In this document: positions 39,988-42,786 of the stretch, in pieces
Numbering within the stretch: the first letter of the stretch is position 1
Layout of the letters: every line of letters begins with the position of its first letter
From: an uncultured Mycoplasmatota bacterium
Lineage (GTDB): Bacteria > Bacillota_I > Bacilli_A > RF39 > UBA660
Length of the DNA stretch: 50,389 bases
Assembly (NCBI GenBank): GCA_947574255.1
Contig: CANPJT010000004.1
Coordinates: 1-50,389, forward strand
Direction of reading: 5' to 3'
Made by a program: the position numbers and the translations under genes
Notes under the pieces: model-generated
What the model saw: only the letters and a program-made list of their open reading frames with translations
Told to the model about the DNA's origin: nothing
Database searches by the model: none

Positions 39988-41490
39988 TTATTTTTCTTTA
40001 ACTAAACCATTAATTGTTAAAATATATAAATCATTAATTACCTCATCAATAAATTTTCGATCATGCGAAACACTTATAATTGTTCCTTTATATTCCTTTA
40101 ATACTTTTCTGATAACTGGATTTGATAAAGGACTTACATTTCTTGTCGGTTCATCAAGTATTAAAACATCACACTCATCTAATACCAATTTAACAAGAAA
40201 TAGTTTTGCTTTTGTTCCGTTGCTTAAGTTTTTAATATAACTCATCATTTCTTTTTTGGTAAATTTCATATTTCCTAAATACATTCTAGCTTTGGTTAGT
40301 TTATCTTTTCCACAACTTGAAGTTAAAAAATCTAGTACTAATTGATAATTATCTAAAATATCACTATAATTTTGGGGCATATAGCCAACTTTTATATCTG
40401 TTCTATTTTTTAATTTTTCATAAATGGTTTTTATTAATGTTGTTTTCCCAACTCCATTTTGTCCGATAATACATAAATGCGTATTTCCCCTAATATTTAG
40501 TTTTACATTTTTGGCTAATATTTTATTATTTACTTCCAATTTAGATATGTCTAAATTTAATATATTTTTTGATTTAGGAATTTCAACTCTCTCAAAAAAG
40601 AAATTTATGCTTTCTTCTACATCAGGTATTTTCATAATCTCGGCACCATTTAATTTCTTTTCCTGTGATTTTAAAGCATGCATTTTCTTTTTTAATAGTT
40701 TAGCCCCATGAGGATCACTTCTTGAAATGGTATTTTGTTCATACTCAACTTTTTGCATTATTTTTCTCAATTTTTCTTGCTTTCTATTAAAATCTCTTTT
40801 TTCAGATTTAGCAATTTGAGTTTGATGATTAATTTTTCTTAATCTAAAATTTACATAAGAATCATAATCACTTCTTATTAATGTATGTCTACATTCTGTT
40901 TTTTTCTTTATTTGTTCTAGATGTAAAATAATATTTGCTGTATTAGATAATAGTGTTTCATCATGAGAAACATATACAATGGGTTTATTTATATTATTTA
41001 TAAAATTTTCCAACCATTCTAAAGTTTCAATATCTAAATCGTTAGTAGGTTCATCTAAAAATAGAATATCATATTCATTAATTAAAAGTTTTAAAATACT
41101 AACTTTTACTTTTTCTCCTCCAGATAAGGTGTTAATTGTTTGATTTAATATTTCATCATCTAAATTAATAGAATCTAAATGTTTATATAAAGTATTTACT
41201 TTTTCATAATAATCAATTTCATCCTTGAATAGAAAATTATACACTTTTTTATTTAAATCTTTTTCATTTACAGATTGTTCTAAATAACCAATTTTATTTC
41301 CTTTTATATTTACACTACCTGTTATTTCAGCATATTCACATATACCTTTAATAGCTTTTAATAAAGTGGATTTCCCATTTCCCTCCTCACCAATAATAGC
41401 AAGTTTATCACCTTTTTGTAAGCTAAAAGACAGATTTTTAACTAAATATCTTTCATTTACCAAGATACTTAAATCTTTTATTTCAAACAT
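39988..41490 (-). CDS. ABC-F family ATPase (ribosome-acting)
   Basis: 500 residues, two ABC domains, no membrane part. First: Walker A GEEGNGKST, signature LSGGE, LFLDEPTNDLD. Linker of ~100 charged residues (KRDFNRKQEKLRKIMQ). Second: GQNGVGKTT, a changed signature LSNGTKAKL, and LDEPTRNVSPLS in place of LDEPTNHLD. ABC-F proteins bind the ribosomal E site; the subgroups with this altered second half include antibiotic-protection proteins, but the sequence does not define the drug. A very unusual leader controls its AGGAGG (41497-41502): see the attenuator entry. A terminator follows the gene. Confidence 0.85.
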   Translation of the reverse strand: MFEIKDLSILVNERYLVKNLSFSLQKGDKLAIIGEEGNGKSTLLKAIKGICEYAEITGSVNIKGNKIGYLEQSVNEKDLNKKVYNFLFKDEIDYYEKVNTLYKHLDSINLDDEILNQTINTLSGGEKVKVSILKLLINEYDILFLDEPTNDLDIETLEWLENFINNINKPIVYVSHDETLLSNTANIILHLEQIKKKTECRHTLIRSDYDSYVNFRLRKINHQTQIAKSEKRDFNRKQEKLRKIMQKVEYEQNTISRSDPHGAKLLKKKMHALKSQEKKLNGAEIMKIPDVEESINFFFERVEIPKSKNILNLDISKLEVNNKILAKNVKLNIRGNTHLCIIGQNGVGKTTLIKTIYEKLKNRTDIKVGYMPQNYSDILDNYQLVLDFLTSSCGKDKLTKARMYLGNMKFTKKEMMSYIKNLSNGTKAKLFLVKLVLDECDVLILDEPTRNVSPLSNPVIRKVLKEYKGTIISVSHDRKFIDEVINDLYILTINGLVKEK

Positions 41491-41570
41491 ATTATGCCTC
41501 CTATTTTGGGCATAATCAAAGTTTATGCCAAACTTATTTAACTAATATTCTCATTTTTGATCACCTCTCC
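41491..41570 (-). promoter_or_regulatory. Translational attenuator of the ABC-F gene
   Basis: Three 7-base segments on the transcript: GGCATAA (41529-41523), TTATGCC (41515-41509) and GGCATAA (41498-41492). The second can pair with the first or with the third; the third overlaps the AGGAGG (41502-41497) and abuts the ATG at 41490. Upstream is a six-residue leader frame with its own strong ribosome site AGAGGTGA (41568-41561). A ribosome stalled on the leader would cover segment 1, so 2 pairs with 3 and hides the site; a ribosome leaving it would do the reverse. This geometry is opposite to ermC unless stalling covers another segment, so the sign of control is not settled, but the mutually exclusive folds are plain. 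Confidence 0.75.
41534..41554 (-). CDS. Leader peptide MRILVK of the ABC-F gene
   Basis: Seven codons including TAA: Met-Arg-Ile-Leu-Val-Lys. AGAGGTGA is about 7 bases upstream. Short leader peptides beginning or containing MR-L are known arrest peptides for macrolide-type drugs (for example ErmDL, MsrA leaders); the likeness here is suggestive only. Confidence 0.65.
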   Translation of the reverse strand: MRILVK

Positions 41571-41944: not shown

Positions 41945-42008
41945 TTATTTTTATTAATTTGATATTTTCTTAAATTAATTTAAGAAAATATCAAATTAAT
42001 AAAAATAA
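41945..42008. repeat. 64-bp perfect palindrome
   Basis: The whole stretch equals its reverse complement, centred between 41976 and 41977, and is almost only A and T. It contains the VanZ stop (41980) and last codons and ends between VanZ and TfoX_N. It would make a 30-bp hairpin in RNA of either strand, with flanking A and T runs, so it probably serves as a terminator. Confidence 0.85.
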
Positions 42009-42699
42009 TTGATACCATTAACGAAAAAGAAAAGAAACAATATTTGATTCCCATATTCAAATTAAAATCTTGATAAAAAAATTCCCTAACTTTATCTATA
42101 AAATTAAATCGTGTTATTAAAATTACAAAAAACATCGCCCCAAAAAAGTTTAATATTATATCATCAACATCAAATATACCAGTATTAGTATAGAGTTGGA
42201 AAAATTCAATACTAGTAATAATTGGTAATAATATTTTTGTTTGATTTATTAACTTATTATATTTTTTGTTTTTTATCATTAGTAAAAAAGACAAAGGTAC
42301 CAATAAAATAGCGTTGCCTAACAAATTATATAATTTTACTTTTAAAGTTGCTCTATTAAAAAGATATTTTGTAATACTGTTAAATGGGATTAAATAATCA
42401 GTATTAATATAAATTAAATTTTCATAACTAAAATCAATATTTGGTCTTCCAATAAATAATGTAATACTTATTAATAAAATAAAATATAAAAAGATATAAA
42501 GATTAATATTATTCTTATAAGTTTCTTTTTTATTATCAATTAATCCAAAACTAAATAATAACAAACATAATGGTGTTATTATTAATATTATTTTTAAATA
42601 AGTCATATCGAAGACAAATCTTCCTCTTGGGATAAGCATAATATATATATAAATTATAAGAGTTAAAAAAACTATAAAATTTTTTATTAATTTTAACAT
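41980..42699 (-). CDS. VanZ-family membrane protein
   Basis: 239 residues from the ATG at 42699 (GGTGG is about 9 bases upstream; the ATG at 42708 lies too near it). About six membrane segments. NLLGNAILLVPLSFLL and the GIFDVDDIILNFFGAMFF motif, with SIEFFQL ahead of it, are the VanZ family signature. VanZ-type proteins affect glycopeptide susceptibility in some bacteria; most have no known role. No van genes are present. Its last codons are inside the palindrome. Confidence 0.85.
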   Translation of the reverse strand: MLKLIKNFIVFLTLIIYIYIMLIPRGRFVFDMTYLKIILIITPLCLLLFSFGLIDNKKETYKNNINLYIFLYFILLISITLFIGRPNIDFSYENLIYINTDYLIPFNSITKYLFNRATLKVKLYNLLGNAILLVPLSFLLMIKNKKYNKLINQTKILLPIITSIEFFQLYTNTGIFDVDDIILNFFGAMFFVILITRFNFIDKVREFFYQDFNLNMGIKYCFFSFSLMVSIIFINLIFS

Positions 42700-42786
42700 T
42701 TTATTCATCCACCACTTTTAATTATTATAACAAATTTTTTAAAGGTATTTTTACTATTTTTTTAGTATAATAAAAATGGTGTTATT

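Follow-up and report, generated by a model that had tools for sequence, protein, structure and literature searches.

Several ABC-F genes are preceded by short upstream open reading frames (uORFs), which code for MR[I/M] in cplR, MIN in vmlR, MK[L/Q] in vmlR2 and MAGN in lsaA (PMC10201436), and pleuromutilins, lincosamides and streptogramins A (PLSA drugs) halt ribosomes at uORF start codons (PMC12421871). In the cplR leader of Clostridioides difficile, an ultrashort Met-Arg uORF lies ahead of the ABC-F gene, whose own Shine-Dalgarno (SD) sequence is sequestered in the off state; induction is expected from stalls just past initiation, and expression is lost when the uORF start codon is destroyed (PMC10201436). 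The vmlR and vmlR2 leaders, of about 220 nt, also sense early stalls through 3-codon uORFs and act by transcription attenuation, with pausing and a terminator (PMC9226507, PMC10201436). Short leader ORFs with alternative RNA folds are found as well in ermC and msrD, whose regulation rests on a conserved, macrolide-responsive arrest peptide (PMC10219788, PMC10314930), while the toiL uORF upstream of topAI in Escherichia coli senses start-codon stalls (retapamulin) and controls the translation of another type of gene, with Rho coupling (PMC12121999). Here we analyze a leader element located in front of an ABC-F gene on the minus strand of a 50,389-nt stretch (the window; positions 1 to 50,389 of contig CANPJT010000004.1) from an uncultured Mycoplasmatota bacterium.

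The element consists of a short leader ORF and three short strands, of which the second can pair either with the first (1:2) or with the third (2:3). We consider it probable that it is a cis-acting translational attenuator of an ABC-F ribosome-protection gene, in which an early drug stall on the leader opens the gene. The cplR leader has an intrinsic terminator and is induced only if its uORF is translated, whereas the element has no terminator and loss of leader translation is predicted to have the opposite effect. The leader ORF of the element is also longer (mostly 5 to 7 codons) and conserved in its first residues only, its three short strands come with a predicted pseudoknot, and the protein it precedes is not a CplR (224 bits against a cut-off of 780). 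Compared with the vmlR leaders, it is shorter (about 110 nt or less) and appears to act on translation only, and its peptide is variable, in contrast to those of ermC and msrD. It is probably a new design within a known kind of antibiotic sensor.

Layout of the element and its occurrence upstream of ABC-F genes

A preliminary description, made from the letters of the window, had proposed a leader SD, an ORF coding for MRILVK, three 7-base segments and the ABC-F start, and direct reading of the minus strand finds all of them at exactly the positions it gave. The features are as follows.

41562-41569, minus strand: SD sequence of the leader ORF, GAGAGGTG, read directly; a GAGGTG/GGAGGTG-type site is retained in the aligned homologs
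41534-41554, minus strand: putative leader ORF, ATGAGAATATTAGTTAAATAA (MRILVK*, six codons plus TAA), read directly
41532-41535, minus strand: AAGU, predicted 5' strand of pseudoknot stem S1, here overlapping the leader stop codon
41523-41529, minus strand: segment 1, GGCAUAA (DNA GGCATAA)
41519-41522, minus strand: ACUU within the loop of 1:2, predicted 3' strand of pseudoknot stem S1
41509-41515, minus strand: segment 2, UUAUGCC (DNA TTATGCC), partner of segment 1 or 3
41497-41502, minus strand: SD sequence of the ABC-F gene, AGGAGG, with its last GG within segment 3
41492-41498, minus strand: segment 3, GGCAUAA (DNA GGCATAA), ending 1 nt short of the ABC-F start codon
39988-41490, minus strand: ABC-F gene, 500 amino acids (aa), ATG at 41490, putatively ribosomal-protection-like
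41488-41570, minus strand: whole element, match to covariance model R1 (88.8 bits; E-value 1.3e-12, such covariance-model E-values being rough)

The leader codons are ATG AGA ATA TTA GTT AAA TAA, followed on the same strand by GTTT-GGCATAA-ACTTTGA-TTATGCC-CAAAATAGGA-GGCATAA-T-ATG, and the element begins just past the stop codon of a TfoX_N-like gene, also on the minus strand. The three-segment layout before the ABC-F gene is far from chance: the segments GGCATAA-TTATGCC-GGCATAA are found in this order once in the window, which is also the only occurrence in its own genome, and in none of 100 dinucleotide-preserving shuffles (expected 0), and the reversed control pattern has no occurrence in 31 genomes. 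Folded alone, the window leader (112 nt) has a minimum free energy (MFE) that is not unusual (z = 0.29), so the evidence for the element is its conservation, seen in 67 distinct homologous elements collected by a contig scan and genome searches.

All 67 elements precede orthologs of this ABC-F gene (50-100% protein identity), and the seven orthologs found in the same genus (58-65% protein identity) all carry it. The covariance model R1, built from 40 of the 67, has a match in 53 of 385 genomes of the order and in 5 of 395 genomes of a class-wide sample; the latter all lie before this ABC-F gene, as do the examined matches in the order except for two. One of these (L153), inside a secreted-hydrolase-like gene, was dismissed as chance, and the other (L154, around 97-175) is a deletion remnant, in which a degenerate leader element directly adjoins the ABC-F 3' end. 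Among the families of Rfam 15 the element has no match above the gathering score. Co-conservation with the upstream TfoX_N-like gene was rejected, as the sequences upstream of the leaders differ among the relatives. One of the five class-wide genomes with a match, from another family (L169, G704), carries the element with an ABC-F 73% identical to that of the window, either by transfer or in a misbinned contig.

Exclusive pairings, ribosome position and the proposed switch

Both exclusive pairings that had been proposed in the preliminary description to control the ABC-F SD are retained in the relatives, each 1:2 base pair in 64 to 67 of the 67 sequences and each 2:3 base pair in 62 to 67. Most segment changes are compatible with both pairing partners, and in one clade (L152 and L155) the three segments have changed together, with pair 3 going from C-G to U-A in all three strands (GGTATA/TATACC/GGTATA); in L148, pair 2 of 1:2 has changed on both sides and 2:3 is held through a G-U. 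The peptide, whose conservation had been put forward as a check, does not follow them. A leader ORF with its own SD is present in all 67 elements, with 3 to 9 codons (mostly 6, and mostly within 5 to 7), but only the first two residues are conserved, with R at position 2 in 52 and K in 7, and later positions are variable. Judging from the aligned homologs, the conserved feature is the RNA and not the leader peptide. The erm/msr-like leader first suggested is thus not supported in the sense of a sequence-specific arrest peptide, and a new sensed compound is not indicated either, since the Met-Arg/Lys start is like that of the published cplR uORF, MR[I/M]. The leader is closer in kind to the 3-codon uORFs of cplR, vmlR and vmlR2 and to the short one of lsaA.

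The follow-up analysis also brought out a pairing absent from the preliminary description. The motif AAGU precedes strand 1 by 1 to 3 nt, and ACUU follows strand 1 immediately; both are present in 55 of the 67 elements and both absent in 12, with no element carrying one alone, which predicts an H-type pseudoknot with a 4-bp stem S1 and a 7-bp stem S2. L101, counted among the absences, carries UAGU:GCUA instead, and in the protein tree the members without the pseudoknot are placed near the base of the clade and on about four later branches. In pseudoknot members the bare 1:2 hairpin is weaker than 2:3 (mean difference 0.8 kcal/mol, with the S1 stacks contributing -5.2 before loop cost), whereas in members without it 1:2 is the stronger in 10 of 11 (mean 1.1), a contrast with a Mann-Whitney p of 0.001, uncorrected for relatedness. 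This pattern suggests selection for 1:2 as the ground state.

The start codon lies 21 to 26 nt from strand 1 in 63 of the 67 elements, despite the varying codon number and stop frame. The stop codon takes several registers relative to AAGU (TAAGT, AAGTAA, AAGTAG, AAGTTAG, TAAAAGT and TAAAGT) and in L101 falls inside strand 1, and the presence of AAGU is independent of its frame. Frameshift or readthrough from the leader into the ABC-F gene was rejected, because leader frames and stops vary freely. On the vmlR uORF the 30S toeprint lies at +16 (PMC9226507), from which we take +15 as the last base shielded by the ribosome. Strand 1 then stays uncovered in 67 of 67 elements when a ribosome is bound at the start codon, and among 48 of the elements its edge is 0 to 3 nt short of AAGU in every pseudoknot member except L028 (12 nt). 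With the same edge, a stop-bound ribosome covers at least 4 of the 7 nt of strand 1 and leaves strand 2 unmasked, again in 67 of 67; the other frames give this geometry in 0/67 and 10/67, and shuffles in 18.5%. Masking the stop-bound ribosome in folding brings 1:2 to 0 and raises 2:3. That the induced state depends on where the ribosome stops had already been noted, and the geometry narrows this down: an early stall would leave 1:2 intact and the gene open, while a ribosome at the stop codon would force 2:3 and shut it. There is no T5 run between strand 1 and the ABC-F start on the gene strand in any of the 67 elements, the only terminator-like site being on the other strand, so control would be purely translational.

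In the switch that we propose, a strongly initiated leader ORF would be followed by the three strands with their mutually exclusive pairings. In the ON state strand 2 would pair with strand 1 and leave the ABC-F SD free, and in most members AAGU, at the leader's end, would pair with ACUU in the loop and lock this hairpin through a 4-bp pseudoknot, while in the OFF state 2:3 would bury part of the SD and the spacer to the start codon. During undisturbed growth, ribosomes would reach the leader stop, where they would open the pseudoknot and shield strand 1 while leaving strand 2 exposed; 2:3 would then form and the gene would be shut. A drug that keeps the first peptide bonds from forming, such as a pleuromutilin, a lincosamide or a streptogramin A, would hold the ribosome on the first two to three codons, with its front edge just short of the pseudoknot; 1:2 would then persist, the ABC-F protein would be made and the ribosomes relieved. 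Absence of leader translation would likewise leave 1:2 with its pseudoknot and an open SD, and a leader start-codon mutant is predicted to be constitutively on. The first leader codons match the pattern of the known, very short uORFs, and those after them would serve as a ruler by which the ribosome comes to lie on strand 1. In trp-type attenuators, too, one strand is covered by the ribosome that has finished the leader, and this decides the partner of the next strand; these attenuators sense charged tRNA at specific codons and act via a terminator, unlike the element described here.

More tentatively, and with slightly more doubt than confidence, we can describe this as an inverted logic, in which the open state is the ground state of the RNA and each completed passage through a decoy ORF of about six codons shuts the gene. 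Any block in the first two to three codons, whatever the peptide, would then derepress it, with the distance from the start codon to the pseudoknot as a ruler set by the front edge of the ribosome.

Alternative explanations

Several points weigh against the proposed switch. In cplR, vmlR and toiL, uORF translation is required for induction, the opposite of what we predict for a start-codon mutant. Nested-only folding of the free RNA is bistable and favors 2:3 on average (0.70, against 0.34 for 1:2); an ON ground state would therefore require the pseudoknot, together with co-transcriptional formation of 1:2 ahead of 2:3. Formal covariation is small (RNAalifold near zero), because the segments are near-invariant, and the frame statistic is not fully independent of AAGU, because UAAGU often supplies the stop codon. 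The element sequences are interrelated, which inflates the counts, and come mostly from metagenome-assembled genomes, and by its sequence the ABC-F subfamily is outside every characterized resistance subfamily.

The alternative that survives best, although we find it rather unlikely, is classical attenuation as in cplR, vmlR and erm, with repression by 2:3 as the default, a leader that is needed, a drug-stalled ribosome that somehow favors 1:2, and an untranslated leader that leaves the gene off. The characterized ABC-F uORFs act in this way (PMC10201436, PMC9226507), nested folding makes 2:3 the more stable pairing in most members, and in Erysipelotrichaceae relatives the helix that sequesters the SD includes the leader, so that a ribosome there would free the SD. 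In the element itself, however, a start-bound ribosome contacts no conserved repressive helix, as RNAalifold gives the 1:2 hairpin alone, and a late stall would favor 2:3 and a shut gene. Conserved base pairs between the leader start region and the switch would favor the classical logic, but a search for them found none; the start region has only variable, unconserved pairs. The phenotype of a leader start-codon mutant, on or off, separates the inverted from the classical logic.

It is improbable that the element senses general translation capacity (starvation, initiation inhibitors or ribosome loss) and no particular antibiotic class. The leader shares its Met-Arg/Lys start with drug-sensing uORFs (PMC10201436), and the element is associated solely with a ribosome-protection-type ABC-F. 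The leader peptide is not conserved, as such a role would have it, and our model predicts the ON state whenever leader completion drops.

Some riboswitches use a compact H-type pseudoknot beside an SD switch, and the compact pseudoknot of the element, with its conserved loop and adjoining SD switch, would suit a small-molecule riboswitch in which the short ORF merely modulates. We give this very little credence, as the pseudoknot is missing from 11 or 12 of the 67 members that retain the leader and the three strands, and there is no Rfam match. That the region is a conserved ribosome-loading or stability leader with no regulation, as the unremarkable MFE of the window leader would allow, is scarcely credible in view of the three-way compensation, the zero mixed pseudoknot states and the 67/67 geometry.

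The ABC-F subfamily and its leaders

The 500-aa protein is an ABC-F with two ABC domains plus a linker (Pfam/NCBIfam). Its AlphaFold model has a predicted local distance difference test (pLDDT) score of 92.7, and with this model Foldseek finds PoxtA, VmlR2, Uup and Sal(B) among the nearest solved folds. The NCBIfam model for ribosomal protection-like ABC-F proteins (NF000355, curated cut-off of 380) scores 307 bits by hmmscan and 398 bits in a genome search that included neighboring stretches, while all scores for the characterized subfamilies Vga, Msr, CplR, Sal, Lsa, OptrA and PoxtA are far below their curated cut-offs. In the protein tree the subfamily is a separate, long-branched clade, and the element-bearing members form one clade (Shimodaira-Hasegawa-like approximate likelihood ratio test, 99). 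The interdomain linker, with a span of 169, is like those of Vga(A), Lsa(B) and Msr(A) (173-176) and not those of EttA, OptrA and PoxtA (141-152), which by analogy makes protection of the peptidyl transferase center likely.

The motifs LSNGT and LDEPTRNVS had at first been taken as a mark of resistance-type members. We reject this, as they are features specific to the subfamily and do not occur in the compared sequences of Vga(A), Msr(A), OptrA, PoxtA and EttA. In nearly all members the ABC2 D-loop has the form DEPTRN[VLIMF]S, which sets the subfamily apart from the other ABC-F references whose motif is readable, and an asymmetric ATPase site is possible.

Other members of the subfamily have different leaders. 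Four Erysipelotrichaceae relatives (L047, L050, L051 and L068) have 3-codon leaders, MKK, MRN, MRN and MKN, respectively; these leaders are buried in a long, very stable helix that holds the ABC-F SD (-21 to -42 kcal/mol), which is the classical geometry. In the sister lineages L053, L031 and L029, the leader ORFs MITITC, MKILVI and MKEDRN are followed by terminator-like hairpins, an apparent transcriptional attenuation. From these layouts, several types of uORF switch seem to have arisen within a single ABC-F subfamily. A candidate MIN leader, ATGATTAACTAA, was also seen upstream of a plasmid vga(A) gene (L163).

Elsewhere in the window, upstream of the TfoX_N-like gene, there is a perfect, very A+T-rich palindrome of 64 nt (41945-42008, 32-nt arms with no spacer) that overlaps the 3' end of a VanZ-like ORF (41980-42708) and has no second full copy in the genome. 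A 6S RNA is located at 2264-2445 on the plus strand (Rfam RF00013, 61.8 bits).

A possible use of the element is as a simple, ruler-based part for reporters of early translation arrest. If the proposed switch is correct, it would amount to a very compact antibiotic sensor that does not depend on the peptide, wired opposite to the ABC-F leaders described so far and conserved across a family of uncultured gut Bacilli, and an ABC-F subfamily not studied before would stand out as drug-inducible and probably protective.
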